From Nitrospirae bacterium RBG_16_64_22 (GTDB taxonomy: Bacteria; Nitrospirota; RBG-16-64-22), in the NCBI GenBank assembly GCA_001803795.1, contig MHEK01000033.1, forward strand, positions 204 through 41,869: 41,666 nucleotides of DNA. Reading direction: 5' to 3'. This document shows, one piece after another, positions 2,623 through 24,219 of this stretch; within the stretch, counting starts at the first letter, position 1, and each line of letters begins with the position of its first letter. Below the pieces are notes generated by a model. That model did not search any database and was not told where the DNA came from. It saw only the letters and a list, made by a program, of their open reading frames with translations. A program made the translations under genes and the position numbers.

Positions 2623-4272
2623 ATGCGTTCCCCCCGGCGCCTCGAGCCCGAAATCGCGAAGATGGTGAAGGCCGTCCGCTTCCAGCTCTCGGAGGCGCTC
2701 GCGGCGGCGATGGAGGGAGACGACTCGAAAGCGCGGAAAGTTGTCGAGCGCGATGACGCGCTCGACAACCTTAGGGCCCTCGTGGAGAGCCGGGTCCACG
2801 AGGCGCTCGCCGAGGTCTCGTTGGGCGAGAACAACCGTCGGTGGCTCCGCGGGATCCTTCGCGTCGCCGGGAACCTGGAGAAGATCGGCGACTACGCCGA
2901 GAACATCGCCCGGCAGGCCGCACACAGGCCGGAAGACCCGGCCCTGTGGCGCGCCACGGTCGCCGATCTCGGCGTGGCCGAGGCGGGGGACAAGGCCGTC
3001 GAGACGGTCGATCGGGCCATCGGCTCGTTCCTCGATCTGGACCTCGCCGCGGCGCGCGGCGTGGCCTTGCTCGAAACCGCGCTCGACGACTGCTACGGCT
3101 CCGGTGTCGCCGCGGCGATATCTCTTCTGCAAAGAGAGCCGGAGCGCGCGTCCGCGGTCATCACGGCCCTGGCCATCCTCAAGTACCTCGAGCGGGTCGG
3201 CGACGCGGCGCTCAACATGGCGGAGAGCATAATCGTGATCGTCACGGGAGAAAGGCTGAAACTCGGCCAGTACGTTCAGCTGACCTCTTTGCTGGAGTCG
3301 TGCGGAACCGACGGCGACGTCGTCCATTTCGAGAGCATCTGGGAGGGAATCAGCGGCGCCCGCCTGGGGCGCGTGACCCTCAAGACGGGAGAGACGATGG
3401 TCTTCAAGGAGGGAAGCTCCCGGAAGATCGAGGAGGAGATGGCCAAGCACAACTCCTGGAGGGAGATCGCGCCGGACCTTCTCGTTCCAATCCGGGCCCG
3501 GCATGCCGAGGGGGAACGGGCCGCCTTCCTCGACCTCTTCGTGGGAGACACGCTCGTCCGCCGCCTCCAGCGTCCCGGAGACGCGTCCACGAAGATCCTC
3601 CTGATCGAACGGTTTCTGGCCCGGCTCGCCGACCTCTGGGACCGGACATCCGAGCCGCGAGAGACCCCGACCTCCTACGTCCGACAGGTCCGCGATCGTC
3701 TTCCGGAGGTCTGGGCCGCCCACCCCGACCTCAAGGCGCTTCGCGGCCAACCCATCCGGGTTGCGGGCTCGCGGATCCCCTCCCTCGACGAGATCCTCGA
3801 CCGGCTCTGCCCCCTGGAGCCCGGATGGGCCCCTCCCTTTTCGGTCTGGCTCCACGGAGACCTCAACATCGACAACATCCTCATCGACGAAGAGCCGCGC
3901 TCGTTCCGCCTGATCGACGTTCACCGGGCCGGCCCCGGCGACTACTTGCAGGACCTCTCCGTCCTCGCCATGTCGTTCATCCGCCACCCGGCTCTCCACG
4001 AGAACCCCGGTCTGCCGGCCTGCGTCTCGACCGTCCGCAGCTTCGCGGCGGAACAGGCGGCCCGGCGGGCCGATTCGCGGGCGGCGTCCCGATGGAGTCT
4101 CGCCCTGGCCCGTTCGTTCATCACGTCCAGCCGGCTCGTCCTGGACGATCGTCTGGCGCGCCGATGGTTCCTGAAGGGCGTGTCCCTGCTCGAAGCCTTG
4201 ACCGAGGCTTCGTCCCTCCGGTCCGACGAGGAACCGGCCCTCTTCGCCTCGTCAAAGGGGGCGATCCCATGA
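2623..4272 (+). CDS. PhoU-like domain fused to an APH/choline-kinase-like phosphotransferase
   Basis: N-terminus with two PhoU-like helical repeats (LRVAGNLEKIGDYAENIARQ; LKYLERVGDAALNMAE); C-terminus with kinase catalytic motif VWLHGDLNIDNILID...FRLIDVHRAGPGDYLQDLS. Confidence 0.8.
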   Translation: MRSPRRLEPEIAKMVKAVRFQLSEALAAAMEGDDSKARKVVERDDALDNLRALVESRVHEALAEVSLGENNRRWLRGILRVAGNLEKIGDYAENIARQAAHRPEDPALWRATVADLGVAEAGDKAVETVDRAIGSFLDLDLAAARGVALLETALDDCYGSGVAAAISLLQREPERASAVITALAILKYLERVGDAALNMAESIIVIVTGERLKLGQYVQLTSLLESCGTDGDVVHFESIWEGISGARLGRVTLKTGETMVFKEGSSRKIEEEMAKHNSWREIAPDLLVPIRARHAEGERAAFLDLFVGDTLVRRLQRPGDASTKILLIERFLARLADLWDRTSEPRETPTSYVRQVRDRLPEVWAAHPDLKALRGQPIRVAGSRIPSLDEILDRLCPLEPGWAPPFSVWLHGDLNIDNILIDEEPRSFRLIDVHRAGPGDYLQDLSVLAMSFIRHPALHENPGLPACVSTVRSFAAEQAARRADSRAASRWSLALARSFITSSRLVLDDRLARRWFLKGVSLLEALTEASSLRSDEEPALFASSKGAIP

Positions 4273-5201
4273 CGACCGCCCCGTCCGGTCCCGCGAAGAT
4301 CGCCGTGGTCGGGAACCCCGGGGCCTGGTCCACGGAGCGGCTCGCCGAATCCGTCCGGAACGAGGGGCTGGATCCCCTCATCGTCCAGGCGGGAGAGCTG
4401 TCCGTCTGCCTGTCGACCGGTCAGGCGAGCTGGCGGGGACGTCCCCTCCCGGACGTTGCCGGCGTCATCGTCAAGAAGCTGGGCCTGTCCACGGACGAGC
4501 AATCCGCCATCCGCCTTCTTCCCCTCGCGGCCTGGGCCCGGCGGGGGGTCCCGGTCTTGAGCGAGCCCGACCGGATCGGCCGTGTGCTCGACCGCTGCCG
4601 GATGACGCTCGACCTCGCCCAGGCGGACATCCCCCTCCCCCGGACGCTCCTCACCGAGTCGCCCGACGAAGCGGCCGAATTTGTCGATGTCTGCGGCCGG
4701 GCGGTGATCAAACCCCGCTACACATCCAAAGGACAAGGGATGCTGTCCGTCGACGCCCCGTCCGACGTGCGGAGCCTCGTCGCGAACAGCGCGGCCCTGG
4801 GACGGGGCGCGGTCTACCTTCAGGAATTCGTCCAATCCCCGGGCCGGGATATCGGCGTCGTCGTCGTTGGAAACGGCATCGCCGGGGCCTATGCGCGGGT
4901 GGCCGCGCCGGACGAGTGGAAAACCACCACGGCCGCCGGCGGACGGTACGCGCCGGTCGAGATCGATTCCGCAATTGAGAGCCTCGCCCTCCGGGTGAGC
5001 CGGGTCTTCGGCCTCGATTTCACGACGGTGGACGTCGTGGAAACCGAGCGCGGCCCGCTCGTCTACGAGGCGAGCGCCCTCGGGGGCTTCCGCGGTCTCT
5101 TCGAGGCGACTGGAATCGACGCCGCCCGTCTCGCCGTCCGCTGGGCCCTCAAGCGGTTTCAGCAAACCGACGCACCCGCGCCGGCCGGCCCGCGAGCCTG
5201 A
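4269..5201 (+). CDS. ATP-grasp enzyme (GAK-system-like, RimK-like fold)
   Basis: KIAVVGNPGAW...RCRMTLDLAQADIPLPRTLLTES...AVIKPRYTSKGQGML...YLQEFVQSPGRDIGVVVVGN; ATGA overlap with the preceding gene. Confidence 0.82.
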   Translation: MTTAPSGPAKIAVVGNPGAWSTERLAESVRNEGLDPLIVQAGELSVCLSTGQASWRGRPLPDVAGVIVKKLGLSTDEQSAIRLLPLAAWARRGVPVLSEPDRIGRVLDRCRMTLDLAQADIPLPRTLLTESPDEAAEFVDVCGRAVIKPRYTSKGQGMLSVDAPSDVRSLVANSAALGRGAVYLQEFVQSPGRDIGVVVVGNGIAGAYARVAAPDEWKTTTAAGGRYAPVEIDSAIESLALRVSRVFGLDFTTVDVVETERGPLVYEASALGGFRGLFEATGIDAARLAVRWALKRFQQTDAPAPAGPRA

Positions 5202-5202
5202 A

Positions 5203-6342
5203 ATGGCGGCCCACATCGACGACCTGATCGGAAGGATCCGGGAACGGCACCCGGCACCGTGGCCCGTCCGGTTCCACGTGGCGGGCGTGACGCTCGATAT
5301 TTTCGCCGGCACCGAGAAGATCGCCGAAGAGATCGCGGCCTACTACCTCCCCTTCGAGGACGAGCCGGGGGCCTCCGCCGTCCGGGAATCGGCCCTGACG
5401 ATCTCCGTTATCGAGGCCGAGCCCGAGCGGATTCGCGGGACGGGCCGGATCCGCCGGGGACGCGCCGGGGCGGGACGAGTCAAGGAAATCGTGCATGAAG
5501 TCCCGGGAGGCCGGATCATCGAGAAGGTTGCTTCCGGACTGACCGTCTTCGTGGGAAGCCGGGAATGGATCGTCCTGGGCCGCGCGGCCGAGCAAATCAA
5601 CCCGGTCGTCAACGTCATCAACGCCGCCTACATGACAGCCTGGCGCCGCCAGGGGCTCTCCGTCCTTCACGCCGCGGCCGTCTCGTGGGGCGGATCCGCC
5701 GTGGCCATCATGGGGGCGCCGGGCGCGGGGAAGTCCACGGCCGCGCTCTGGTGCATGGAAGAGGGCGCCGAATACGTCACGAACGACCGCCTTCTCGTCG
5801 GCCCCTTGCCCGAGGCCAAGGTTCTCGGTGTTCCGAAACACCCGAGGGTCAATCCCGGAACGCGGCTCACCCATCCGCGGCTCTTCATGAACCTGACGCC
5901 CGAAGAGCGGAACTCGCTCGGAAGACTCCCGCTGAAGGATCTGGTCGAGCTCGAAGAGAAGCAGGACGTCGTAATCGAAAGCTGTTACGGCCCGGGACGG
6001 CTCAAGATCCCGACGCGCCTTGCCGGCTGGGTCTTCTTGGATTGGCGGGTCGGAACCGGGGCATGGACGGCGTCCGTGATCCCGTTCGCGGCCCTCCGTC
6101 CCTGGGCGGGCGACATCGTCCGCGGGATCGACCCTTACGACTCTTCGGAAGCGGAAGCCGGTCCAGACGACCTGTTCAACGAGATGACCTCGCGCCTGTC
6201 CCGGGTCCCCGGCTTGCGGATCAGCGGAAAAGCCGACTTCCCGGCGCTCGCGCGCGCCCTCCGCGCCTGGATTGTCGATGGGGAACTTCCGGCGATCGGG
6301 GTGATCAATCCGGCCGAGGAGCTTCCTCGGGCGCTTGGGTGA
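5203..6342 (+). CDS. HprK-related kinase (type B-like)
   Basis: Walker A GAPGAGKST in the context LSVLHAAAVSWGGSAVAIMGAPGAGKSTAALWCMEEGAEYVTNDRLLV, typical of HPr-kinase-related proteins. Confidence 0.8.
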   Translation: MAAHIDDLIGRIRERHPAPWPVRFHVAGVTLDIFAGTEKIAEEIAAYYLPFEDEPGASAVRESALTISVIEAEPERIRGTGRIRRGRAGAGRVKEIVHEVPGGRIIEKVASGLTVFVGSREWIVLGRAAEQINPVVNVINAAYMTAWRRQGLSVLHAAAVSWGGSAVAIMGAPGAGKSTAALWCMEEGAEYVTNDRLLVGPLPEAKVLGVPKHPRVNPGTRLTHPRLFMNLTPEERNSLGRLPLKDLVELEEKQDVVIESCYGPGRLKIPTRLAGWVFLDWRVGTGAWTASVIPFAALRPWAGDIVRGIDPYDSSEAEAGPDDLFNEMTSRLSRVPGLRISGKADFPALARALRAWIVDGELPAIGVINPAEELPRALG

Positions 6343-6399: not shown

Positions 6400-6630
6400 A
6401 TGACCGTCTGTTGCCCCATGTGCAAGGATTTCTTGAAATGCAAGAAGCGGGAGATGCGCCGAGCCGGATCCGGATGGGAGGCCTGCTGCGACCGGTGCGG
6501 CCTCTTCTACACGGCGTGTCCCGACGTCCCGATTCTTAGGCGTCGAGGATGGTTCCGGATCAACCGCGAGGCGTGGCGGACCAACCGCCCCGGGCCGCCG
6601 CTTCCGCCGGCTGTATCGATCACGGGATGA
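6400..6630 (+). CDS. Small Cys-rich (zinc-ribbon-like) protein
   Basis: CCPMCKDFLKC...ACCDRCGLFYTACPDVPIL with paired CxxC motifs; ends in ATGA overlap with the next gene. Confidence 0.6.
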   Translation: MTVCCPMCKDFLKCKKREMRRAGSGWEACCDRCGLFYTACPDVPILRRRGWFRINREAWRTNRPGPPLPPAVSITG

Positions 6631-8075
6631 AGCCCATCGTCTTCGGGACATCCGGATGGCGCGGTCCCGTCGGCCGCGAGGTGACGCCGGCGCGCATGGA
6701 AGCCCTCGCGCGCGCCATCGTGCGCTGGCTCTGGAGGCGGACCGGGCAGGCGAACGCCCCCGGCGGGTCGATCCGCGTCCTCGTCGGGCGCGACACGCGT
6801 CTCCATTCGGAATGGCTCGAGAAAACGCTTATACGCGCTCTCCTGTCGCACGAAGGCGTATCGGTCGCGAGAGGGATCGGCGAAACGCCCACGCCGGGCG
6901 TGGCCTGGGGGGTGAGCCGCCTGCCGCTCCGCGCGGACTTGGGCCTCGTCGTGACGGCGAGCCACAATCCTCCTTCGGACAACGGTCTTAAAATCCTCAT
7001 GCCCGACGGCCGTCTCTGCCCCGACCCTGCCGCCGCGGAAATCCTCGGGCTTGTCGACGAGACCCCGCCGCGGACCCGCCGCCCCCATCCGGCGATACGG
7101 GAGGTCGACGTCGCCTCCGCCTACGCCGAGGCTCTTCGAAAGCTCGTCCCTCCGCCTGGCCACAGCCTGGACCTGGTCGTCGACCCGATGCACGGGGCCG
7201 CGCGGAAGGTTCTCCCAGCGGTTTTCGAAGGATGGGGACGCGTGACGGCTATTCGAACCGCCCTCGATCCCGCGTTCGGGGGAGTCTCTCCCGACCCCCG
7301 TCCCGAGACGCTCCGCGATCTCGCCCGATGTGTCGTGGAAACGAACGCGGACCTCGGACTCGCCGTCGACGGCGACGGCGATCGGTTCGGCGTCGTCGAC
7401 GCGGCGGGCGCCTGCGTCCCCCCGCACCGTCTCATGCCCCTCCTGATCGAGGACCTCCTCCTGCGCGGACCGCGCGGACCCGTCGCCCGCTCCGTCGCCA
7501 CGACCCACATCGTCGACGATGTGGCCCGCGCGCACCGGACGCCGGTCGTCGAAACAGCCGTCGGTTTCAAGCACCTCGGAGCGGCGATGGCGGAGGACGG
7601 CGCCGTGATCGCGTGCGAAGAATCGGGCGGGTTCGCCTGGGCGCCCCATGTCCCCACGAAGGACGGATTGCTCGCCTGCCTCCTCGTCGGCGATCTGGTC
7701 GCCCGCCGCGGGGTTCCGCTCCACGAGCTGATCGCGGACTTCGAGAGGCGCTTCCCCCCCCGGCCGTTCGCCCGCCTCGACCGGCCGATGGACTCGGCCC
7801 TGCTCGCCCGCCTCGAGGAGGATCCGCCGACCGAGATCGCGGGCCGCCGCGTGGAAAGCATCGGCCGGCGGGACGGCCTCAAGTTCCATCTCTCCGACGG
7901 CTCGTGGATCCTCGTCCGGAAGGCGGGAACCGAGCGGATTCTCCGGTGGTACGCCGAATCGCGCCGGCCGAAGGACCTCCCGCTCATTCTCGGGGCCGTG
8001 GACCGGATCGAGGCGGAGAGATCGGGCGGCGGAAAGACCCGGTCCTCGGTCTCCGTCCCCGCTATGACGCAATGA
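6627..8075 (+). CDS. Phosphoglucomutase/phosphomannomutase-family phosphohexomutase
   Basis: FGTSGWRG, catalytic TASHNPPSDNGLK, metal-binding DGDGDRFG, EESGGFAW, RKAGTERILR. Confidence 0.9.
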   Translation: MKPIVFGTSGWRGPVGREVTPARMEALARAIVRWLWRRTGQANAPGGSIRVLVGRDTRLHSEWLEKTLIRALLSHEGVSVARGIGETPTPGVAWGVSRLPLRADLGLVVTASHNPPSDNGLKILMPDGRLCPDPAAAEILGLVDETPPRTRRPHPAIREVDVASAYAEALRKLVPPPGHSLDLVVDPMHGAARKVLPAVFEGWGRVTAIRTALDPAFGGVSPDPRPETLRDLARCVVETNADLGLAVDGDGDRFGVVDAAGACVPPHRLMPLLIEDLLLRGPRGPVARSVATTHIVDDVARAHRTPVVETAVGFKHLGAAMAEDGAVIACEESGGFAWAPHVPTKDGLLACLLVGDLVARRGVPLHELIADFERRFPPRPFARLDRPMDSALLARLEEDPPTEIAGRRVESIGRRDGLKFHLSDGSWILVRKAGTERILRWYAESRRPKDLPLILGAVDRIEAERSGGGKTRSSVSVPAMTQ

Positions 8076-10351: not shown

Positions 10352-12727
10352 ATGGCGTCCCCGCCCGAAGCGCGTGTCGATCTGCACGTCCACTCACATC
10401 ATTCAAACCGCCCGTCCGAATGGATCCTCAAGAAGATCGGCAGTCCGGAATGCTACACGAAGCCGCGGGACCTCTACCGGATCGCGAAAGCGCGCAGTAT
10501 GACGTTCGTCACGGTGACGGACCACAACGTCATCGACGGCGGCCTCGAGATTGCACACCACCCCGACGTCTTCCTCTCCGAGGAGGTGGACGTCTCGTTC
10601 CCCGAGGACGGCTGCAATATCCACGTCGTCACGCTGGGAATCACGGAAACACAGCACGCCGAGATCCAGCGCCTCCGGCGGAACGTCTACGATCTGACGC
10701 GCTATCTCAACGCCGAGGGAATCGCCCACTTTGTCGCGCATCCCCTCTACAACCAGAACGGGCGCCTCACGGTCGAGACGTTCGAGAAGATGCTCGTCCT
10801 CTTCCCCGCGTTCGAGGTCCGGAACGGCGCCCGCAACCGCCTGCTGAACGACCTGACGGATCGGATCATCACGGGGATTACGGGAGACGATATCGCCCGC
10901 CTCGCCGACAAGCACGGGATCGCTCCCGCCGGAGAATACCCGTTCCGCCGCGGCATCGTAGGCGGGTCGGACGACCACGGCCAGATCCACGTTGCCACGG
11001 CGTACACCTGGACCCTCGGAGCCCGGACGATTCCGGAGTTCCTGGACGCCGTGCGGCACGGGCGGACCCACCCCGCGGGCGCCAGCGGTTCGGCCGTCGT
11101 CCTGGCTCACTCGATCTACAGCGTCGCATTCCGTTACTACATGGACCGGCTTGGGGTCCGCCCCGAGAGATCCTCGAACCCGCTCATCGCGAGCCTTCCC
11201 CGTCTCCTCTACAACGACACGGAGGCGCGGCTCAACCCATGGGCGAAGATCTCCCACCTGGCCCGCCGGCTCAAGCCTCGAAAGAAGCTCAAGCCGGATG
11301 AGGAGGACCTCCTCGTCCTCTTGCGGGAGGAGCTTCGCGCCGTCTTCGGCCGGCCGGGGGAATACAAAGACTGGCTCGCGAACGGCTCCGCCTCCGTCGA
11401 GGAGCACAACGCCAGGATCTTCGGGCTCGCCAGCCGCATGTCCAGCCGGATACTGTTCGTCTCCCTCGAGAAGATCGTCAAGAGTTTCTCATCGGAGAAC
11501 CCGCTCAAGGGGATCCAGGCCGCCTCCGGGATCGCGGGGATCTACGGCCTCCTGTCCCCCTACTTCTTTTCCTTCTCTCACCAGTACAGGGACCGCCGCC
11601 TTCTCGCTGAAGTCCAAACCAGGTTCAACGCCGGACGCGAGACCGGAGAATCCGTTCTCTTCTGCGACAACGACGCGCTCTGGGACTCGTCCGGTCTCAC
11701 GCCGGCCCGCCTTCTCAAGGCGCGGGAGGAAGGCGTCCCGATCTCGATCTTCACCTGCTCGGAGATGCCGGCCTTCGACGAAGCCGGCCTCAAGAATTTC
11801 CCGGCCCCGGGGAGTCTCGCCGTGGCGGAGAACAGGATCTGCTTCCCTCCCGTGTTGGACGTCCTGGCCGAGCTTGAGACGCGGAATCCGGACCGGCTGG
11901 CCGCCTGGACGGCCGGACCGATGGGGCTCGCGGCCCTGCTGGCCGCGCGGCTCCTCGGCCTCCCGCTCACGACCTACTTTCACACCGACCTCCCGGCACT
12001 CGCGCGCTTCCTCACGCGGGACGCCGACATCGAAGAGCTCGTCTGGAAGTACGTCGCATGGTTCCATGGAAAAGCGGACACGGTCATCGTCCCCACGGTC
12101 GCGGCGAAGACGGCCCTGACGGCTCGGGGCCTCGACCCCCGCCGGATCGAGGTCCGGGCGTGGGCCTCGCCCTGGAGCGCGAACGGGACGCTGTTCGAGC
12201 GCGGCGAAGACGAGCCGCTCCGGCTGGTCTGCGTAGGCCCCATCGACAGGGACCGGGGGACGATCGAGATGATTTCCGCCTGGGACTCGGTCCGGGGCGC
12301 TCTCCCCGGTGCGACGCTTGTTCTCTGCGGCGACGGGCCGATGGCGGCCGAGGCGCAGGGACTGCCGGGCGTGGAAGTCGTACCGCCCCGATCCAGCGCC
12401 GGGCTTGCCGCGCTTCTTGCCCGCGCGGACCTCTTCCTGACCAACGACCGGATCGACCTCACGGGCCTTGAGACGCTCCGCGCCCTCTCGGCGGGGCTCC
12501 CGGCCCTGGTTCCCCACGGGTCCGCCGCCGCCGAGCACGTTCAACCGGTCCGCACCGGCCTCCTCCACGACGGGACCGCGCCGTCCATCGCCGCCGCCCT
12601 CCAAGCCCTGCTCGCCGATTCCCGCCGCCCCGAGATGGGCGATCTGGCTCGCCGACGGGCGCGCGAAGTCACCGTGGGAACGATGCTCGCCGCCGATCGC
12701 GTTTCCCGCGAGTCGATACCGGCATGA
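10352..12727 (+). CDS. PHP-domain phosphoesterase fused to a GT4-like glycosyltransferase
   Basis: PHP motifs VDLHVHSHHS, VTVTDHN, FVAHPLYN, GGSDDHGQ; C-terminus LLGLPLTTYFHTDLPALARFLT, RLVCVGPIDRDRGTIEMISAW, GLETLRALSAGLPALVPHGSAAAEHV. Confidence 0.8.
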   Translation: MASPPEARVDLHVHSHHSNRPSEWILKKIGSPECYTKPRDLYRIAKARSMTFVTVTDHNVIDGGLEIAHHPDVFLSEEVDVSFPEDGCNIHVVTLGITETQHAEIQRLRRNVYDLTRYLNAEGIAHFVAHPLYNQNGRLTVETFEKMLVLFPAFEVRNGARNRLLNDLTDRIITGITGDDIARLADKHGIAPAGEYPFRRGIVGGSDDHGQIHVATAYTWTLGARTIPEFLDAVRHGRTHPAGASGSAVVLAHSIYSVAFRYYMDRLGVRPERSSNPLIASLPRLLYNDTEARLNPWAKISHLARRLKPRKKLKPDEEDLLVLLREELRAVFGRPGEYKDWLANGSASVEEHNARIFGLASRMSSRILFVSLEKIVKSFSSENPLKGIQAASGIAGIYGLLSPYFFSFSHQYRDRRLLAEVQTRFNAGRETGESVLFCDNDALWDSSGLTPARLLKAREEGVPISIFTCSEMPAFDEAGLKNFPAPGSLAVAENRICFPPVLDVLAELETRNPDRLAAWTAGPMGLAALLAARLLGLPLTTYFHTDLPALARFLTRDADIEELVWKYVAWFHGKADTVIVPTVAAKTALTARGLDPRRIEVRAWASPWSANGTLFERGEDEPLRLVCVGPIDRDRGTIEMISAWDSVRGALPGATLVLCGDGPMAAEAQGLPGVEVVPPRSSAGLAALLARADLFLTNDRIDLTGLETLRALSAGLPALVPHGSAAAEHVQPVRTGLLHDGTAPSIAAALQALLADSRRPEMGDLARRRAREVTVGTMLAADRVSRESIPA

Positions 12728-13947
12728 GCGGCTGCGCCGCGGCGACGGCCGTGACAACCTTGCCGCTCTCCGGTCACAACCCCTTGGATTCCTCCCTCCT
12801 CGCCGTCTACGTCTCGTGCGGGTCGGGACACCGCCGCGCCGCCCAGGCGGTCGCGGCCGCGGCGCGGGAGCGCGGGCTCGTTGCGGACAGCGTGAACCTC
12901 CTCGACCACGTCCACCCCCTGTTCCGGCGCGCCTATCAGAACGGCTACGAATGGATCGTCCGCCACGCCCCGGCCATTTGGGCCGGGCTCTACGCCTCGG
13001 CGGCGCATCCCCGGTCGGAGGCGGCCCTGCGGCGCGTCCAGGGGTTCCTCTCGAGGCCCGCGGCCCGTCCCTTCTTCGATCTGATCGAAACCTCGCGGCC
13101 TTCCACGGTCGTGGCCACGCATTTCCTCGCCGTCCACCTGCTGGGCCCCTTGCGGGCGCGCTGCGGCTTTCGCCTCGCCGCCACGATCACCGACTTCGAG
13201 GCGCATCCGTTCTGGATCGACGGCGCCGTCGACACGTACACCGTAGCCCACGAGGACGTCGCCCGCGAGCTTTCGGCCCTCGGCGTCCCCCGCGACAGGA
13301 TCGAAGTAACCGGAATCCCCATCCAGCCGGACCTGGACAAGCGCGACTCCGCCGCCTGCCGCAAGGTCCTGGGGATTCCGGACGATGAGCGGGTCATCCT
13401 GGTCCTCTCGGGCGGCATCGGCGTCGGGCGGATCGAGCAGGTGGTCGTCGACCTCGCCCGGAGGCGCGTGGCCGCCTCCGTCTGGGTCTCGGCCGGAAAC
13501 GACGCCGGGAGACTGAGGCGGCTCGAAGCCTTGGCCTCGTCTCTTCCGCTCCGCGTCCGCCCGTTCGGGTTCGTCGAGAACATCGAGGACTACCTGGGCG
13601 CGGCCGACGTCCTCGTGACGAAGCCCGGCGGGCTCACGGTTTCGGAAGCCCTCGCCCGCCGCCTCCCGACCGTCCTCATCGATCCGATCCCCGGCCAGGA
13701 GAAGGCGAACGCCCGCTTCCTGACCTCGCGGGGCGCGGCCCTGGAGGGAGGAAGCGCTGTGGAAGCTGTCGACGCCGTCGAGCGTCTCCTGTGCGACCCG
13801 GCTCTGCGGAGCGACCTTCGCCGGCGGATGGAATCGCTCGCCCGGCCGGACGCCGCGCGGGACGCGGCGAGGAGGCTCTTCCCGAACGGACCGCTCCTGA
13901 TCGAAAACGCGCGCTTGGAACGGAACACCAACCATAGCGGAGGATGA
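12724..13947 (+). CDS. MGDG-synthase/diacylglycerol glucosyltransferase-like GT28
   Basis: [25 protein letters not shown]...[68 protein letters not shown] overlap with upstream gene. Confidence 0.85.
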
Positions 13948-13948
13948 C

Positions 13949-14407
13949 GTGCACACCGACAACCGAACGTTTCGAGGGAAGAAAAAGATCGCCCTGGTCG
14001 CGCACGACAACAAGAAGCGCGATCTGCTGGAATGGATCAAGTTCAATCGGGATCTCCTGTCACAACACGAGCTCTGGGCCACGGGCACGACCGGCAGACT
14101 CCTGGAGGGGGAGCTCGGGCTTGACGTCATCCGCCTGCAAAGCGGCCCTCTCGGCGGCGACCTCCAGATCGGGTCAAAGATCGTCGAAGGAGAAATCGAC
14201 TTCATGATCTTCTTCTGGGACCCGCTCGAGCCGCTCCCGCACGATCCCGACGTCAAAGCCCTTCTGCGGATCGCGGTCGTCTGGAACATCCCGGTCGCGT
14301 GCAATCGCGCATCGGCCGATTACATCATTTCGTCGCCCTTGATGACCCAGCCGTACGAACGCACCCTGCCGGACTACGCCGTGCATCTCGAACGCGAGCT
14401 TCGTTGA
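13949..14407 (+). CDS. mgsA: Methylglyoxal synthase
   Basis: [42 protein letters not shown]...[72 protein letters not shown]. Confidence 0.95.
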
Positions 14408-14428: not shown

Positions 14429-14477
14429 TTCTCCGACCTCTAAGGTACTCTTCGTCATTTACATTCGCGCGCCTTGA

Positions 14478-14497
14478 CCCCGCCCCAAGGGGCGGGG
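14478..14497. repeat. Perfect GC-rich inverted repeat CCCCGCCCC-AA-GGGGCGGGG
   Basis: 9-bp perfect arms; shares GGCGGGGATT with the hairpin 50 bp upstream. Confidence 0.6.
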
Positions 14498-14569
14498 ATT
14501 GCGGCGCACTTTGCGGTTCAACCGCCGGATGAGAGACCGCCGATGCTTCGCCGCGAAAGGAGACCTTCG

Positions 14570-15493
14570 ATGAGAATCGCCGTGATCGGAGATCCCGCCT
14601 CCTGGGAAACCGACCGACTGTCCGAAACCATCCGTTCGCTCGCCCACGAGGCCGTCGTGATTCCCCCGGAGGAATGCTCCCTCTGTCTCCACAAGGGGCA
14701 GGTCACGCATCGCGGGCAGGATCTCTCCCTGTTCGACGCCGTTCTCGCGCAGAGTCTCGGGGACGTCGCCCGGCCGGCCACAAGATTCCGGGTCCACATT
14801 CTCCGCCACCTCGAGCGCCAGGGCGTCCGCGTCTTCCCCAGACCGGACGCCATCGAGAGCACGATGGACCGGTATCGGATGACGCTCGATCTGTCCCAGG
14901 CGGGCCTCCCCGTCCCGCCGACGCTCGTGACGGAGCAGATCGAGCACGCCCTCCTCTTTCTCGAGGCGTTCGGGCCGTCCGTCTTCAAACCTCTCTTCAC
15001 GTCGGGCGGCCGGGGGATGGCCGTCCTCGCCGATCCGGCGGAGGCCCGTGGGTTCCTCCGCGCCCAGGCGGACACGGGCGGCCTCCCGTTCTACCTTCAG
15101 CAGTTCATCGAGAATCCCACGAACCACATGAGCGTCGTCATCGTCGGCGGGCGGTTCCTCTGCGCCTACACCCGCCCCTGGGCCGCGCCGGGGCGCGAGG
15201 AATCGGCTTCGCCTTCGCCCCATCGGCTTATCCAACCCTCCGCCGAGGAGATCGCCATCGCGCGTTGCGCCGCCCGTCTCTTCGGCCTGGGCTTCGCGAC
15301 CGTCGAGATGGTCGATCAGGGCTCCGGCCTCACGATCTACGACGTGTCCCCCTGGGGAAACCTCCGGGGCCCCTGGGAGATCGGCGCGATCGACGCCGCC
15401 GGCGCCCTCGTCACGCACGTACTGGAGCAGATTCCCGCCGTGTCCATCGCCTCCGGGGACGAGACGGGTCGTCTCGCCCGGGTTTCCCATTGA
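14570..15493 (+). CDS. Second ATP-grasp enzyme, paralogous to 4269-5201
   Basis: MRIAVIGDPASWETDRLSETI...DRYRMTLDLSQAGLPVPPTLVTEQ...SVFKPLFTSGGRGMAVL...YLQQFIENP; AAGGAG RBS. Confidence 0.8.
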   Translation: MRIAVIGDPASWETDRLSETIRSLAHEAVVIPPEECSLCLHKGQVTHRGQDLSLFDAVLAQSLGDVARPATRFRVHILRHLERQGVRVFPRPDAIESTMDRYRMTLDLSQAGLPVPPTLVTEQIEHALLFLEAFGPSVFKPLFTSGGRGMAVLADPAEARGFLRAQADTGGLPFYLQQFIENPTNHMSVVIVGGRFLCAYTRPWAAPGREESASPSPHRLIQPSAEEIAIARCAARLFGLGFATVEMVDQGSGLTIYDVSPWGNLRGPWEIGAIDAAGALVTHVLEQIPAVSIASGDETGRLARVSH

Positions 15494-15504: not shown

Positions 15505-16329
15505 ATGAACACAATCCTTGTGGCTGACGACCAACCGGCCCTCGTCGAGACGATGTCGAGCGGGGAGTGCCGGGATGAAATCTCCTTTCTCTTCGACACC
15601 CTCGTCCACGAACTCAACAACGTCGTGCTCGCGATCGACGGATGCGCGGGTCTCCTCCGGCGAGACGCGGCCCTTGCCGAACTCAGCCGGACGTACGTGG
15701 GCATGATCCTGACGGGAACAAACCGGCTCACCCGCCGCCTCGAAGATTTGCGGGTCCTGACACGGGACGGGAGCGAGACCGCCCCCGGGGCCGCGGATCT
15801 CTCCGCCATCCTCCGGGAGGTCGTCTCCGAATCGGAGGCGGGGGCCCGGGAGCGGGAGATCGAGGTCTCCGCCTCGGTGCCCTCCGATCCGGTCCCCCTT
15901 GCCGCCCCGGCCGCCGTCACGCGCACGATTCTCCGGAACATCGTCAAAAACGCGGTCAAGTACAACGTCCGCCGCGGGCGCGTGGACATCGCCGTCTCCC
16001 GGGATGAGACGCGGGGGACCGTGTCCGTCGCCGACACGGGGATCGGGATCCCGGCGGAAGCCCGGGAAGCGGTCTTCTCCCGCGGCATCCGCCTCGACCG
16101 CTCCGGGACGCCGGGAATGGGGCTCGGCCTCTACATCGTCCGGCGCCTGACCGAGCGCTTCGGAATCGACGTGGAATTGGACAGCGTGGAGGGAAAGGGA
16201 TCGGCCTTCATTCTCCGGTTCCCTCTTTCCGTCTCCGCGTGGTCCCAGCCCCAGCCCGCCCCGCTCGCTTGGCCAACCTTGCCAACCGTGCCAACCCGTC
16301 CAACTCTGAAAGGAGAGAAAATCGGATGA
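15505..16329 (+). CDS. Cytoplasmic sensor histidine kinase (candidate PhoR partner)
   Basis: H-box LVHELNNVVLAIDG, N-box ILRNIVKNAVKYN, G-boxes VADTGIGIP and GMGLGLYIVRRLTERFG; no TM or periplasmic segment. Confidence 0.82.
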   Translation: MNTILVADDQPALVETMSSGECRDEISFLFDTLVHELNNVVLAIDGCAGLLRRDAALAELSRTYVGMILTGTNRLTRRLEDLRVLTRDGSETAPGAADLSAILREVVSESEAGAREREIEVSASVPSDPVPLAAPAAVTRTILRNIVKNAVKYNVRRGRVDIAVSRDETRGTVSVADTGIGIPAEAREAVFSRGIRLDRSGTPGMGLGLYIVRRLTERFGIDVELDSVEGKGSAFILRFPLSVSAWSQPQPAPLAWPTLPTVPTRPTLKGEKIG

Positions 16330-18296
16330 CAAGACATTCAGTCCTCACGGCCGCGCTCTCGATCTTCTGTCTCCCGTCCTTCGTCCTTCAAGCCCACGCC
16401 GAGCCACGAACCGCCAACCGGATCGCCAAAGTCGAATTCACATCGACCCCGGCCCCGGCGACGGCCGAGGAGATGGCCGTCGGCTACACGCGTTCCGACG
16501 CCGTCGTCACGTATGCCGACGGCCGCCGGAAGGTTTTCCCCCTCTCATACAACGTGCTCTACCGTCCCGGCAACGTCGTCGGCGGCAGGCAGGCCGCTTT
16601 GATCGTGGATCGGGAAGGGAAACCGATCATGCGGTCCTCGCCCGACGAGAAAGGCGACGCGGCCAAGGGGCCGTTCTTCGCGTTTGCCCCCGACGCCAAC
16701 TCCCTGATCCGGCTGGGAGAGAAGGGACGGGAGCGCCTCTACCTCGTCACCCAGTTCGAGTACCACACGGAAGCGCCCAGCGCCGTCGACGGGAATCCTC
16801 CCCTCCAGATGTACGCCCAACTCCCGATGGCGATGAATCTGGCCGCGCTTCGGCAGAACGGGAAGACCGGCAGGCTCCAGGCGGTCAAGCTCTCGAACAT
16901 CGACATGGGCCCGATCAACGGCCTCTGGATCCCCTGCGCCGCCTCGCTCACGCCGTGGAACACGCACCTGGCCGGAGAGGAGTACGAGCCGTACGCCAGG
17001 CTCTTCGAGAACGCCCCCCTCGAGCCGATGAACCTCTTCCTGAAGACTCCCGGGAAAACAGCCCGGGAAGGAGGAGCGAAGGCTTACGACTACGGCCATC
17101 CCGTGGAGGTATCGGTGGACGCGGGGGGCCGGACGAGCGTGGTCAGGCGCTACGCCATGGGACGCCTCGCGGCCGAGCTTGCCCACGTGATGCCGGACGA
17201 GCGGACGGTCTACATGGGGGACGACGGCCGGGACGTGGTCTTCTTCATGTTCATCGCCGACAAGCCGCGCGACCTCTCGGCCGGAACGCTTTACGCCGCG
17301 AGATGGGAGCAGACCGAAGCGGCGAACGGAGGAAAGGCCGTCCTCCGCTGGATCCGCCTCGGCCACGCGGCGGAATCGGAGATCAAGGCGCTCGTGGACA
17401 ACGGGATTTCCTTCTCCGACATCTTCGAGTCCGTGGATGCCGAAGCCTACAAGGGCAACCCGGCCGCGCATGCGGGTTTCCAACCTGTCTACGTCTATGG
17501 AGGTTCCGCCGCGTCGAGCAAACCCGGCTCCGGGGTCAAGCCGGGCACGGTGTATCTGAGAGTCCGGCCCGGGATGGAGAAGGCCGCCGCGTTCCTCGAG
17601 AGCCGCCGGTACGCGGCCCTGAGGGGAGCGACGACCGAGTTCACGAAGATGGAGGGCGTGGCGCACAACGGGAGGGACAAGAAGCTCTACATCGCCATGT
17701 CGTACGTCGAGGCCGGGATGATCGGCGGGAAGAACGACGACCGGCCGCGTGATGACATCCGCCTGACGGGAGACGCGAAAGATCTGGCGTGCGGCGCGGT
17801 CTACGAGAGCCGCTTGGGCGGAGGGCAGTCGGATACGGACGGGAGCCCCATCCCGAGCGATTGGGTCGCCGCGACGATGGAGGCGCTCGTGACAGGCGGG
17901 AGAAAGTCCTTCGGCCAGACGGCTTACGGAAAACACGACGCGTGCGACACGGATCGGATGGCAAACCCCGACAACCTCAAATACTCGGAGGAAATGCGGA
18001 CCCTCTTCATCGGCGAGGACAGCGGGAACCACCTGAACAATTTCCTCTGGACGTACAACGTGGATACAAGCCGGCTCACGCGAATCATGAGCGCCCCGGC
18101 TGGTGCGGAACATACCGGTCTCCAGATCGTGCCCAACGTGAACGGACACACGTACATCATGTCCAACATCCAGCATCCGGGCGCGGCCCAGGACCTCAAG
18201 AAGTATCCCGACGAAGTCAAGGTCCAGCTCCGGTCACGGGTCGATCCCAGGGGATCCGTGGGGTACATCTCGGGCCTTCCTGCTTTGAAGCGGTAG
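16326..18296 (+). CDS. phoX: PhoX-like (DUF839) alkaline phosphatase
   Basis: Signal peptide followed by DUF839-like sequence incl. YNVLYRPG, FAPDANSLIRLGEKG, HVMPDERTVYMGDDGRDVVFFMFIAD, LSAGTLYAARWEQ, ADNGISF-like and C-terminal NPDNLKYSEEMRTLFIGEDSG. Confidence 0.75.
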   Translation: MTRHSVLTAALSIFCLPSFVLQAHAEPRTANRIAKVEFTSTPAPATAEEMAVGYTRSDAVVTYADGRRKVFPLSYNVLYRPGNVVGGRQAALIVDREGKPIMRSSPDEKGDAAKGPFFAFAPDANSLIRLGEKGRERLYLVTQFEYHTEAPSAVDGNPPLQMYAQLPMAMNLAALRQNGKTGRLQAVKLSNIDMGPINGLWIPCAASLTPWNTHLAGEEYEPYARLFENAPLEPMNLFLKTPGKTAREGGAKAYDYGHPVEVSVDAGGRTSVVRRYAMGRLAAELAHVMPDERTVYMGDDGRDVVFFMFIADKPRDLSAGTLYAARWEQTEAANGGKAVLRWIRLGHAAESEIKALVDNGISFSDIFESVDAEAYKGNPAAHAGFQPVYVYGGSAASSKPGSGVKPGTVYLRVRPGMEKAAAFLESRRYAALRGATTEFTKMEGVAHNGRDKKLYIAMSYVEAGMIGGKNDDRPRDDIRLTGDAKDLACGAVYESRLGGGQSDTDGSPIPSDWVAATMEALVTGGRKSFGQTAYGKHDACDTDRMANPDNLKYSEEMRTLFIGEDSGNHLNNFLWTYNVDTSRLTRIMSAPAGAEHTGLQIVPNVNGHTYIMSNIQHPGAAQDLKKYPDEVKVQLRSRVDPRGSVGYISGLPALKR

Positions 18297-18386: not shown

Positions 18387-18452
18387 AAACGGACATTGGG
18401 CGCAAACAGGCGGAAGGTAAAATTCTGCCAACACTCAAGGGAGGAAAAGAAG

Positions 18453-19433
18453 ATGAAAAAGAAAACGTTCGTCATCGCGGCCGCTCTGGCGGCCACACTC
18501 TCCGCGGCCGGGCCCCTGCTCGCGGCCGACTCGGTCAAGGTGGACCCCAAGCTCACGGCCTACAAGGCCGTCGCCGGCGTCTCGGGAAACATCTCGAGCA
18601 TCGGGTCCGATACGCTCAACAACCTGATGACGCTCTGGGCCGAGGGGTTCAACAAGTTCTACCCGAACGTGAAGATCCAGATCGAGGGGAAGGGCTCGAC
18701 CACGGCTCCGCCGGCCTTGATCTCGGGAACGGCCCAGCTCGGGCCGATGTCCAGGCCGATGAAGGGAACCGAGATCGACGCCTTCGAGAAGAAGTACGGC
18801 TACAAACCGACGCCGGTCCGGACGTCCGTGGACGCGCTCGCCGTCTTCGTCAACAAGGACAACCCGATCAAGTGCTTGACGATGGCCCAGGTGGACGCGG
18901 TCTTCTCCAAGTCCCGCCGCAGGGGCCACAAGGAGGAGATCAAGACCTGGGGCCAGCTCGGGCTCAAGGGCGACTGGGCCAACCGGCCGGTCTCCCTCTA
19001 CGGCCGCAACTCGGCCTCCGGGACGTACGGATTCTTCAAGGAGCACTCCTTGAAGAACGGCGACTACAAGGACGCCGTCAAGGAACAGCCCGGCTCGGCT
19101 TCCGTCGTCCAAGGCGTCACCGTGGACCGTTACGCTATCGGGTACAGCGGGATCGGCTACGCGACGCCCGGCGTCCGGGCGGTCCCCCTCGCAGAGAAAG
19201 AGGGCGGTAAGTGCGTCGAGGCCAATGCCGAGAACGCCTACGCCGGGACCTACCCGCTCTCGAGGTTCCTCTATGTCTACGTGAACAAAGCTCCGGGCAA
19301 GGGACTCGATCCCTTGACTCGCGAGTTCGCCAGGCTCATCCTCTCCAAGGAGGGACAGGAGGTTGTCGTGAAGGACGGGTACTTCCCGATCACCTCCAAG
19401 ATCGCCCAGGAAGAGACGAAAAAACTCCAATAA
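18453..19433 (+). CDS. pstS: Phosphate ABC transporter substrate-binding protein PstS
   Basis: Signal peptide, [21 protein letters not shown]...[44 protein letters not shown]. Confidence 0.93.
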
Positions 19434-21731
19434 ATGGATCCTGTCCTCGAACAGCAGGTTGAAGTCCCGCCCCGCGGGCCGCAAAAAGCGGCCCGCGGGG
19501 CTGTTTCATCACGTTCGTCCGTCAAGCGCCGCATCCTCGTCGACCGGATCGCGCGACGTCTCGTGACGCTCGGCGGCGTTGTGATCATCGCGTCGATCCT
19601 CGCCATCCTGATCGTTATCGGAATCGAGGTCTATCCCTTGGCCGGACAGCCGGCCGTGACGAGCGGGGCGACGAGCACGGCCGCGGGCGGCGGGACTCCT
19701 CTAGCCATCGGCGTCGACGAGTACGTGGAGACGGCCTTCATCGCGGACGGCGGCGGAATCACTCTCATCTCCTTCAAGTCCGGCTCGGTGCTTCCCTCCC
19801 CCTCTCTTGCCGGCCTGGGCTCCGCCCGGATCGTTTCGGCCTCGCCCGCGGGGCGGGGGGTCTTCGCCCTCGGCCTCTCCGACGGGCGCGCCATCCCCGT
19901 CGAGGTAAGGTTCAACGTCTCTTACATCGAGAGCGGGCGCAAGGTGGAGCCGGAGGTTGTGGCCGCCGCGCCTCTCGCCGTGGATCCGTCGAAGCGGCCG
20001 ATCGAGCGGCTTGCGCACATCGTCGGACCGGACGGGGCGGTGACCGCAGCCCAACTCGGCGCCCGGGAGATCATCCTCCTCTCCGTCAAGGAGACGAAGG
20101 CCCTCGTCGGCGAGGCGAAACGGGAGGAATCCCGAAAGACTCTTTCGCTTCCCTCGCAAGGCGAGATCACGGCGCTCGCCATCGACGCCCGGGGAGACAA
20201 CCTCTTCGCCGGAACGTCCATGGGCGAGATCGTCTCGCTCGGCCTGCGCGAAGAAACCGAGCCCGAAGTGACGCGCCTCGGCCGCGAGCAGGATGAAACC
20301 GCTCCTTCGATCACGGCCCTCGGCTTCTTGAACGGAGACCGGACGCTCGTCGTCGGAGACGCCGCGGGAGGCGTGACGTCCTGGCAGGTCCTCCAGGACG
20401 CGGGCGGTGACCGCCGCCTTACGAGGATCTACAAATTCGTCTCCCACGAAGGACCGGTGATCGCATTCGCCCCCTCCCGCCGCGACAAGGGATTTCTCAC
20501 GGCGGACGGCTCCGGCGCAATCAAGCTCCATTACGCGACAACGGGAAAGACCCTGCTCGACGTCCCCGCCGGAGGCGCGGAGGATTCGGCCGCGGCAAGC
20601 CTGGCGGCCCTTTCGTTCGCGCCCAAGGCCGACGGCTTCGTCACGGCCGACGCCGCGGGGCGCCTCTCGCACTTCCGGCTGGACAACCCCCATCCGGAGG
20701 TCACGTGGCAATCGCTCTTCGGAAAGATCTGGTACGAAGGGTACGAAAAGCCCGAGCAGGTCTGGCAGTCGACGGGCGGAACGGACGACTTCGAAGCGAA
20801 GCTCAGCCTCACGCCGCTCATCTACGGGACGCTCAAGGGGACGTTCTACGCCCTTCTCTTCGCCGTCCCCCTGGCCCTGCTCGGCGCCCTCTACACCTCG
20901 CAGTTTATGCACCCGGCGATCAAGGGGACCGTGAAGCCGGTCGTCGAGATCATGGCCGCCCTTCCGAGCGTCGTCCTGGGATTCATCGCCGGCTTGTGGC
21001 TCGCCCCGATGATGGAGAAGGTCGTTCCCGGCCTCTTCCTCATCCCGGTCGTCGTCCCGGTCCTCGTCCTTCTCTCGCTCGCCCTCTGGCGCCTTCTGCC
21101 GACCCCCGCCCGGACTTGGGTCAGGCCCGGGTATGAGGTCGTCCTCCTCGTCCCGGTCGTGACCCTCGGGATCTGGATCTCGCTCGGATTGGGCGGGCTG
21201 CTTGAAGCGGCTCTCCTATCCGGCGACTACCGCGGCTGGCTGTTGCGCGCGCTCGGGCTCACGTACGATCAGCGGAACTCCCTCGTCGTCGGCTTCGCCA
21301 TGGGGTTCGCCGTGATCCCGATCATCTTCACGATCGCCGAGGACTCCCTCTCGAACGTCCCCCAGCACCTCGTCGCGGGGTCCCTCGCCCTGGGAGCGAC
21401 GCGCTGGCAGACGGCGGTGAGGATCGTCCTTCCGACGGCCTCCCCCGGGATCTTCTCCGCCGTGATGATCGGGTTCGGCCGGGCCGTCGGCGAAACGATG
21501 ATCGTCCTCATGGCCACGGGGAACACGCCGATCATGGACTGGTCGATCTTCAACGGCTTCCGCGCCCTCTCGGCCAACATCGCCGTCGAGCTCCCGGAGG
21601 CCCCGGAGGGCGGAACGCTCTTCCGCGTCCTCTTCCTCGCGGCCCTGCTCCTGTTCATGATGACGTTCGTCGTCAACACCGTCGCGGAGCTTGTCCGCCT
21701 CAAGCTCAGAAAGAAGTACCGGTACCTATGA
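19434..21731 (+). CDS. pstC: Phosphate ABC transporter permease PstC with large N-terminal/periplasmic beta-propeller-like insertion
   Basis: C-terminal permease motifs (EIMAALPSVVLGFIAG, SLALGATRWQTAVRIVLPTASPGIFSAVMIGFGRAVGETMIVLMATGN); ~420-aa insertion with repeated blades (ITALAIDARGDNLFAGTSMGEIVSL). Confidence 0.9.
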   Translation: MDPVLEQQVEVPPRGPQKAARGAVSSRSSVKRRILVDRIARRLVTLGGVVIIASILAILIVIGIEVYPLAGQPAVTSGATSTAAGGGTPLAIGVDEYVETAFIADGGGITLISFKSGSVLPSPSLAGLGSARIVSASPAGRGVFALGLSDGRAIPVEVRFNVSYIESGRKVEPEVVAAAPLAVDPSKRPIERLAHIVGPDGAVTAAQLGAREIILLSVKETKALVGEAKREESRKTLSLPSQGEITALAIDARGDNLFAGTSMGEIVSLGLREETEPEVTRLGREQDETAPSITALGFLNGDRTLVVGDAAGGVTSWQVLQDAGGDRRLTRIYKFVSHEGPVIAFAPSRRDKGFLTADGSGAIKLHYATTGKTLLDVPAGGAEDSAAASLAALSFAPKADGFVTADAAGRLSHFRLDNPHPEVTWQSLFGKIWYEGYEKPEQVWQSTGGTDDFEAKLSLTPLIYGTLKGTFYALLFAVPLALLGALYTSQFMHPAIKGTVKPVVEIMAALPSVVLGFIAGLWLAPMMEKVVPGLFLIPVVVPVLVLLSLALWRLLPTPARTWVRPGYEVVLLVPVVTLGIWISLGLGGLLEAALLSGDYRGWLLRALGLTYDQRNSLVVGFAMGFAVIPIIFTIAEDSLSNVPQHLVAGSLALGATRWQTAVRIVLPTASPGIFSAVMIGFGRAVGETMIVLMATGNTPIMDWSIFNGFRALSANIAVELPEAPEGGTLFRVLFLAALLLFMMTFVVNTVAELVRLKLRKKYRYL
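19469..19501. repeat. Strong stem-loop at the 5' end of pstC
   Basis: Perfect 14-bp arms GCCCCGCGGGCCGC-AAAAA-GCGGCCCGCGGGGC followed by TGTTTC. Confidence 0.8.
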
Positions 21732-23347
21732 GCAGGTTCTGGAAGAGCGGCGATCCGTTCATCTGGCTCACGGCGGGAGGGCTCGCCTTCTCCCTCCTCA
21801 TGGTGGCGGGGCTCATCCTGTTGATCCTCGCGAACGGCCTCGGGTTCTTCTGGCCGAAGGACGTCGTCCTCCTCGTCATGGACGACAAGACCGCCGTCAT
21901 GGGACAGGTCATGGACCGGGAGGAGATCCCCCAGCCGGGCGCCCCTCCCGAGACGCCGAAGAAATACCGGATCCAGGTCAAGCAGGGGAACCGAGACATC
22001 TATGGGCAGGACTTCACGTGGGTGGATGAATCGAGGATCGCCCGCCGCGAGAGACCGGACGACGCGATCGTAATCGAGCGGCGCGAGTGGGGAAACTTCG
22101 TCGGAACGTTGAGGGAAGTCCGCGAGGACGGGCGGCCCGTCGCTGGGGGCGGTGACGACGGCTGGAACGCCCTTGAGGCGCGTCTTCCGCAAGCCGCCCG
22201 GCTCCTGGCCGAAATCCGGCGGATCGAGAAGACGGAGATCGGCGCGGTCAACCACGCCCAGGAGAAGATCCGCCTCAACCTCAAGAAGCTCTCCGCCCAG
22301 GGAAGAGGAGAGGGGCCCGAAGCCGCCCGTCTCAAGGCGGAGCTGGGCGCCTTGCAGACCGGGTACGCGGAGATGGAAACCGCCTTGGGCGCCGCCAAGA
22401 AGAAGGACACAACCAGCGTGGTCGCCGCCGCCGTGGGGGGGCAGGAAAAGGAGCTCCCGCTCACGCAGGTCGTCCGGGCCTACCGTCCGAACGCCATGGG
22501 GTCTGGGGCCAAGGCCGCCTTCTACGCCGCAAAGGTCTGGGAGTTCGTCGCGGACGCCCCGCGGGAATCGAACACCGAAGGGGGCGTCTTCCCTGCGATC
22601 TTCGGGACGGTCATGATGGTCATGATCATGAGCCTCGTCGCGACGCCCCTGGGCGTCCTCGCCGCGTTCTACCTCAGGGAGTACGCCCAGCAGGGACCGT
22701 TCGTCAGCGCCGTGCGGATCGCCGTGAACAATCTGGCCGGTGTGCCGTCGATCGTCTTCGGCGTCTTCGGCGTGGGGTTCTTCGTCTACTTCGTCGGCGG
22801 ATCGCTCGACCGCCTCTTCTATCCCGAATCGCTCCCGACGCCGACCTTCGGCACGGGAGGAATCCTCTGGGCCTCGCTCACGCTGGCCCTCCTCACGCTC
22901 CCCGTCGTGATCGTCGCCACGGAGGAAGGACTGGCCGCCATCCCCGGCGGGCTCAGGGAGGCGTCGCTCGCCCTCGGCGCCACGAAGTTCGAGACGACCT
23001 GGCGGATCGTCCTCCCGGCCGTCATGCCGTCGATTCTGACGGGGCTGATTCTCGCGATGGCCCGGGCGGCCGGGGAGGTCGCCCCGCTCATGATCACGGG
23101 CGTCGTCAAGCTGGCCCCCGCCCTTCCCCTCGATTCTTTCTGGCCCTTCCTCCACATGGACCGGAAGTTCATGCACCTCGGGTTCCACATCTACGACGTC
23201 GGGTTCCAGTCGCCCAACGTGGACGCGGCCCGGCCGATGGTCTTCACGACGACGCTTCTTCTTCTCGGCATCGTCCTCGTCCTCAACCTCGCGGCCATCG
23301 TCCTTAGAAACCGCTTGAGGAAGAAGTATGCCCTTGGAACATTGTAG
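21728..23347 (+). CDS. pstA: Phosphate ABC transporter permease PstA with coiled-coil insertion
   Basis: [101 protein letters not shown] overlap. Confidence 0.92.
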
Positions 23348-23367
23348 GGGCGTATGGCCATGCGCCC
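23348..23367. repeat. Palindromic (REP-like) element in the pstA-pstB gap
   Basis: GGGCGTATGGCCATGCGCCC directly after the pstA stop; near-perfect inverted repeat with G-T-compatible mismatches. Confidence 0.55.
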
Positions 23368-23403
23368 TCGCAACTGATAGGATGCCGCCCATGGGAGACC
23401 CTT

Positions 23404-24219
23404 ATGCCGATTGAGACGCGCCTGTCGCCGGATCTGCACGCGAACGCCTCGACGGAGGCTTTGGAATCGGCAATGGTCGAAATCCGAAACCTGTCCCTCT
23501 GGTACGGCGAAAAGCAGGCCCTCAAGAACATCTCGATGGACGTCCCAAAGAACCGGATCACCGCCTACATCGGGCCGTCCGGATGCGGCAAGACAACGCT
23601 TTTGAGGTGTCTCAACCGGATGAACGACCTCGTGGACGGCGTCCGGACATCCGGAACGATCCGAATCGGCGGAACGGACATCCAAGACTCCGCGCTCGAC
23701 GTGACGGAGCTTCGGAAGCGCGTCGGCATGGTCTTCCAGAAGTCGAACCCGTTCCCCAAATCGATCTACGAGAACGCGGCCTACGGACCGCGAATCCTCG
23801 GCGCGAGCGACCGGCGGGAGCTGGACCAAATTGTGGAGCGCTCCCTCAGGGGAGCGGCCCTCTGGGACGAGGTGAAGGACAGGCTGAACGACAGCGCCCT
23901 GGGCCTCTCCGGCGGCCAACAGCAGAGGCTCTGCATCGCCCGGGCGATCGCCGTCGAACCGGACGTCCTCCTGATGGACGAACCGTGCTCGGCCCTCGAT
24001 CCGATCGCCACGGCGAAGATCGAGGAGCTGATGATCGGCCTCAAGAGGCGCTACACGATCGTCATCGTCACGCACAACATGCAGCAGGCCGCGCGCGTCT
24101 CCGACATCACGGGGTTCATGCTGATGGGCGAGTTGGTGGAGATCGGCGCGACGCGCGACCTCTTCACGAATCCCAAGGACCGGCGGACGGAAGACTACAT
24201 CACGGGGAGGTTCGGCTGA
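23404..24219 (+). CDS. pstB: Phosphate ABC transporter ATP-binding protein PstB
   Basis: Walker [52 protein letters not shown]. Confidence 0.96.

Follow-up and report, generated by a model that had tools for sequence, protein, structure and literature searches.

A PhoU-kinase fusion in GAK-type operons and its genomic linkage to phosphate genes

The GAK system is already known, as NCBI family models only: NCBIfam TIGR04354–TIGR04357 describe an amphi-Trp protein, an HprK-related kinase B (HprK-B), an ATP-grasp protein, and a CofD-like protein. In the literature that we searched, we found nothing relevant on the GAK system, on amphi-Trp or HprK-related kinase B, or on fusions of PhoU to kinases, and no enzyme activity or substrate for any GAK component. 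The way in which PhoU signals phosphate status remains a matter of debate. Lipid remodelling is known as well: during phosphate starvation, glycolipids replace phospholipids, and the phospholipase and glycosyltransferase genes are adjacent and have PhoB boxes (PMC4796936).

Here, we describe a protein from Nitrospirae bacterium RBG_16_64_22 that joins a PhoU domain to an APH-fold kinase. We call the entire 41,666-nucleotide stretch that we analyzed the window. Within the limits of the literature searched, the recognition of the PhoU half, the near-obligate role of the fusion in GAK, and its linkage to Pho genes appear to be new. RefSeq names the fusion “phosphotransferase” or “aminoglycoside phosphotransferase family protein,” and we found no fusion-specific family among the models that we searched. 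The central protein of GAK is currently concealed by the name “phosphotransferase.”

The fusion protein and its two domains

The features of the fusion gene are:

2623–4272, + strand: PhoU-APH fusion gene, 549 aa (from the ORF, Pfam, the structure model, and 84 relatives)
2638–3255, + strand: PhoU domain, aa ~6–211, two three-helix bundles (Pfam, NCBIfam, the model, Foldseek, and a PDB profile search)
2878–2892, + strand: ExxxD motif of PhoU repeat 1, E86–D90; both positions are acidic in 76/84 relatives
3190–3204, + strand: ExxxD motif of PhoU repeat 2, E190–D194; both positions are acidic in 70/84 relatives
3325–4212, + strand: APH-fold kinase domain, aa ~235–530, with invariant K262, E272, H411, D413, N418, and D432 (Pfam, the model, and the alignment)
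3853–3876, + strand: catalytic loop HGDLNIDN, aa 411–418

The fusion of PhoU and an APH-fold kinase in one protein is real. The ORF starts with ATG, has zero internal stops, and encodes all 549 amino acids in a single frame, with the PhoU domain preceding the kinase. We scanned one genome per species, obtained 361 relatives, and took the best 80 of these; with three plasmid relatives and the window, they make up a set of 84 loci (relatives' loci have L-numbers such as L041). This set is weighted towards loci that resemble the window, our counts ignore kinship among the loci, and many of the contigs are short. The full-length fusion (532–653 aa) is present in 83 of the 84 loci (best 80 of 361, plus four), including that of a genus-mate, which rules out a frameshift or misassembly as its origin. 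The sole short copy (L115) reaches the end of its contig. The genus-mate is a Nitrospiria bacterium from Hainich groundwater; its fusion is 63–64% identical to the window's, and its gene order is the same.

A sequence-only reading of this DNA had proposed PhoU-type repeats followed by a kinase. Both repeats (LEKIGD at aa 85–90 and LERVGD at aa 189–194) and both kinase motifs (HGDLNIDN at aa 411–418 and IDVHRAGPGDYLQDL at aa 431–445) are indeed there, and Pfam matched PhoU (PF01895) and APH (PF01636) within the same ORF. The match to PF01895 is in two stretches (E = 9e-27, 93.7 bits versus a cutoff of 23.5). An AlphaFold2 model, built with 68 sequences, had a pLDDT of 91.8 and a pTM of 0.84. 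The N-terminus was modelled as a PhoU fold, so the possibility that no such fold would be predicted there was ruled out by structure comparison: in Foldseek, aa ~6–211 matched most solved PhoU structures with TM scores (to the target) of 0.85–0.89 and rmsd of 1.7–2.6. The C-terminal half matched APH(3'), and a profile search against PDB sequences concurs for both halves.

Because the fusion scores 109 bits against the PhoU equivalog TIGR02135, under the cutoff of 130, we consider it a PhoU-domain protein and not a PhoU. The stand-alone phoU that had been noted at 24219 does encode a canonical PhoU (24219–24875; 246.5 bits for TIGR02135), and the fusion contains a second PhoU unit, distinct from the Pst-associated PhoU and joined to an intact APH-fold kinase. 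In 47 of the 52 genomes that we tested, another PhoU that exceeds the family cutoff is encoded elsewhere. All four acids of the ExxxD motifs (E86, D90, E190, and D194) are present in the window's protein. These metal motifs are incomplete in 15/84 proteins, chiefly from Rhodobacterales and Thiodiazotropha-type loci, so metal-based sensing is not universal.

In the kinase half, Pfam's APH model matches aa 330–456 (E = 1.4e-9). K262, E272, H411, D413, N415, N418, and D432 are identical in 84/84 sequences (best 80 of 361, plus four). The C-lobe residues R359, R435, R454, R490, R497, R504, and H367 are invariant as well (84/84). This conservation suggests that the substrate lobe forms a basic pocket, which in turn suggests an anionic substrate. 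“Choline-kinase-like” was not the best label for this domain, as APH(3') enzymes are the nearest solved kinases. We rejected the identification of the fusion as an aminoglycoside resistance enzyme: it scores 28 bits against the APH(3') family model, far under the cutoff of 205.

The GAK operon and its distribution

The other genes of the operon are:

1968–2273, + strand: possible second amphi-Trp protein, which has diverged (only 13 bits)
2308–2604, + strand: amphi-Trp domain protein (TIGR04354, 73 bits; cutoff 31)
4269–4272, + strand: ATGA stop/start overlap between the fusion and the ATP-grasp gene (from the sequence)
4269–5201, + strand: RimK-like ATP-grasp of the GAK type (TIGR04356, 262 bits; cutoff 300; the best family by far)
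5203–6342, + strand: HprK-related kinase B (TIGR04355, 196 bits; cutoff 200)

The gene order in the window is amphi-Trp protein, fusion, RimK-like ATP-grasp, and HprK-B, and the last three share one operon, as in the relatives. The ATGA overlap bears out the proposed translational coupling of the fusion to the ATP-grasp gene, and these two genes overlap or are separated by at most 50 nt in 76/80 relatives. Since the window's ATP-grasp and HprK-B fall just under the NCBI cutoffs, we term this a divergent GAK-type operon. We did not find the GAK-type CofD (TIGR04357) in the window's genome, which is 89% complete; there is a partial match of 72 bits elsewhere (cutoff 340). Nor was CofD detected in roughly half of the 84 loci.

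The fusion had been treated as an isolated oddity; instead, it belongs to the GAK system as a nearly constant part. Across the 84 loci (best 80 of 361, plus four), the ATP-grasp is near the fusion in 80, HprK-B in 70, and amphi-Trp in 67. Among 116 genomes from the order that includes Gilvimarinus, the fusion is found in 8/8 genomes with HprK-B above the cutoff and in 1/108 genomes without it (Fisher p = 1.4e-11). The core of the GAK system comprises the fusion, the RimK-like ATP-grasp, HprK-B, and the amphi-Trp protein.

The hosts of the best 80 of the 361 relatives include Nitrospirota, Rokubacteria, Nitrospinota, Zixibacteria, Planctomycetota, Alpha- and Gammaproteobacteria, SAR324, Lambdaproteobacteria, FCPU426, and others. 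Within the window's own phylum, the distribution is patchy: among a sample of 296 genomes, just two (the window's genome and its genus-mate) have the full fusion, and a third genus member lacks it. Three relatives are on plasmids, and relatives carried by Rhodobacterales plasmids bear the GAK annotation beside the same fusion.

GAK loci contain either of two unrelated phosphoesterases. Among the 57 loci with enough flanking sequence, 20 have a ~395-aa protein with PHP-type metal motifs (C11), 31 have a calcineurin-type phosphoesterase, and none have both. The structure model of C11 matches PHP phosphoesterases, including RNase AM. This mutual exclusion indicates that GAK systems use one or the other, and the two possibly serve the same step; clade effects contribute to the exclusion too. 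C11 did not turn up in the window's own genome, which is a weak result. As for annotation of the C11 family (L042 4706–5881, L047 8496–9662, and 31 other loci), all Pfam and NCBIfam models are under their cutoffs.

Some other features of these loci are worth recording. The window has a second GAK-type ATP-grasp (14474–15493, + strand, 212 bits), apart from the GAK operon and beside the methylglyoxal synthase gene. In many proteobacterial GAK operons, a SixA-type histidine phosphatase is fused to a NUDIX domain (L101 5313–6278 and 18 other loci). We also considered whether amphi-Trp could be a LysW-like carrier for the ATP-grasp, which we ruled out as its C-terminus is not conserved.

Linkage to phosphate genes

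The other genes that we annotated in the window are:

32–1135, + strand: histidine phosphatase (branch 1) with an N-terminal extension (ORF, Pfam, and the genus-mate); the ORF runs off the window's edge, and translation may therefore begin further upstream
1208–1966, + strand: PhoB-like response regulator (best NCBIfam match is PhoB, 225 bits; cutoff 296)
6573–8075, + strand: enzyme of the phosphoglucomutase/phosphomannomutase/GlmM family (NCBIfam)
10352–12727, + strand: protein with a weak PHP-like part and a GT4 glycosyltransferase
12724–13947, + strand: glycosyltransferase of the MGDG/diglucosyl-DAG-synthase type
13949–14407, + strand: methylglyoxal synthase
16239–18296, + strand: PhoX-type alkaline phosphatase
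18396–24219, + strand: phosphate transporter PstS, PstC, PstA, and PstB
24219–24875, + strand: canonical stand-alone PhoU, the last gene of the PstS-C-A-B-PhoU operon (18396–24875)

The window is a phosphate-stress island: the PhoB-like regulator, PhoX, the MGDG-synthase-like enzyme, methylglyoxal synthase, and Pst-PhoU are all on one strand.

PstC (765 aa, 19434–21731) and PstA (539 aa, 21728–23347) are far above the usual length and have extra N-terminal regions; the Pst proteins in L041 are of similar length. Relatives of the 10352–12727 protein (~800–950 aa, weakly PHP-like at the N-terminus, with a GT4 glycosyltransferase at the C-terminus) are near the GAK operon in six other loci (L040, L051, L060, L061, L075, and L103).

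Repeated linkage of the operon, in other phyla, to genes for Pst, PhoU, and PhoB/PhoR-type proteins backs the fusion's connection to phosphate. In seven loci from several phyla, Pst or PhoU genes are no more than 10 kb away from the fusion. In L041, a PhoB-like gene and PstSCAB-PhoU come directly after the GAK operon; in L075 and L103, it is followed by genes for a PhoB-like protein, a PnpS/PhoR-like kinase, and PstS. In the remaining four, PstS and PhoU are near the fusion (L096), PstB and PhoU are upstream of it (L055 and L118), or PstA is nearby (L115). In most relatives, Pst genes were not seen within 10 kb, a test that is limited by fragmented contigs. In a whole-genome search that covered 52 other genomes, 6 had a canonical PhoU no more than 20 kb from the fusion, versus ~0.6 expected (Poisson p ~ 4e-5), where the expectation presumes 1.3 copies of PhoU per 4.5-Mb genome and the loci are not phylogenetically independent.

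A gene of the phosphohexomutase family is beside the operon in 12/84 loci, including the window. Pho-box-like sites are found upstream in 7/79 cases versus 2.7% expected, which is a mild enrichment that involves few clades. Because the fusion's operon is recurrently beside phosphate-uptake genes, we suggest that the GAK gene set is part of the bacterial response to phosphate shortage. Separately, L105 (6795–8601) and other Thiodiazotropha-type loci have adjacent genes for a GT4 glycosyltransferase and a calcineurin-type phosphoesterase ~2 kb from the fusion, which is a PlcP-Agt-like arrangement by gene type.

Possible functions and comparison with known systems

We propose that, in the fusion, this divergent GAK-type operon encodes a PhoU-gated kinase whose substrate during phosphate limitation is an anionic metabolite, probably one that resembles a phosphosugar; we would give this proposal about an even chance of being correct. 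The C-terminal APH-fold domain would use a nucleotide to phosphorylate a negatively charged metabolite, probably similar to a sugar phosphate. The N-terminal PhoU module would report on phosphate status and tune the kinase; for this, it would either use its ExxxD metal sites or contact PstB, PhoR, or a PhoB-type partner. The same pathway would involve the ATP-grasp ligase and the HprK-like kinase, and histidine, calcineurin-type, or PHP-type phosphoesterases may undo or trim its phosphate esters. Our analysis shows the fusion itself, the intact catalytic residues and mostly intact metal-motif residues, the conserved operon, the near-obligate co-occurrence, and the linkage to Pst, PhoU, PhoB, and PhoX. 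We infer catalysis, the anionic substrate, gating by phosphate, and the direction of control.

A rather unlikely alternative, in our view, is that the PhoU half does not sense phosphate and is instead a structural, oligomerization, or docking module by which the kinase is kept within a multi-enzyme GAK complex. The incomplete metal motifs in 15/84 proteins, the tight gene order with the ATP-grasp, and the presence in most tested genomes of another above-cutoff PhoU that could do the sensing are consistent with docking, but the ExxxD acids are retained in most relatives and the linkage to Pst, PhoB, and PhoR genes is recurrent. It is more doubtful still that the kinase targets a protein, such as amphi-Trp or a GAK partner, in a signalling relay instead of a metabolic pathway: the solved kinases closest to it are APH enzymes that act on small molecules, the partners look metabolic (ATP-grasp, phosphoesterase, NUDIX, and phosphosugar mutase), and the amphi-Trp tails lack a conserved C-terminal acceptor. 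HprK-B's kinship to HPr kinase/phosphorylase, which is a protein kinase, and the small amphi-Trp proteins alongside the fusion in most loci would favor a relay. Finally, the Pfam match and the RefSeq names might suggest an aminoglycoside phosphotransferase family kinase that modifies an antibiotic or a toxin. Given the very low APH(3') score, the invariant arginines in place of an acidic pocket, and the near-obligate GAK operon, we consider this very improbable.

If the fusion is a PhoU-gated kinase, then GAK might be an undescribed phosphate-starvation pathway that spans multiple phyla, in which the kinase's product (a signal, a store, or a lipid or sugar intermediate) is ligated and trimmed by the operon partners. 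We put this broader idea forward tentatively, with somewhat less than even confidence. Phosphate limitation is the first functional lead for this widespread and unstudied gene set. If the broader idea is true, PhoU would control an enzyme within the same chain, not a transporter or a histidine kinase. And if the enzyme's activity can be measured, the covalent tie to PhoU would allow a direct test of what a PhoU module senses.

Among the closest known systems is GAK, whose partners and their order are the same. The differences are that the NCBIfam models that we found leave out the PhoU-APH protein, that the window's genome lacks the GAK-type CofD, and that two of the window's partners are slightly under the cutoffs. 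Like PhoU (PF01895, TIGR02135), the fusion has the two-bundle fold and ExxxD motifs, but it falls below the equivalog cutoff, carries a kinase domain of ~300 aa, and coexists with a canonical PhoU. It shares the kinase fold and the catalytic HxDxxxxN...D residues with APH(3') (PF01636), but has invariant arginines in the substrate lobe, scores far below the cutoff, and has an attached PhoU half. As in PlcP/Agt lipid remodelling (PMC4796936), comparable glycosyltransferases and phosphoesterases are near the operon in the window and in some relatives; this likeness by type of enzyme is just a clue from the neighborhood.
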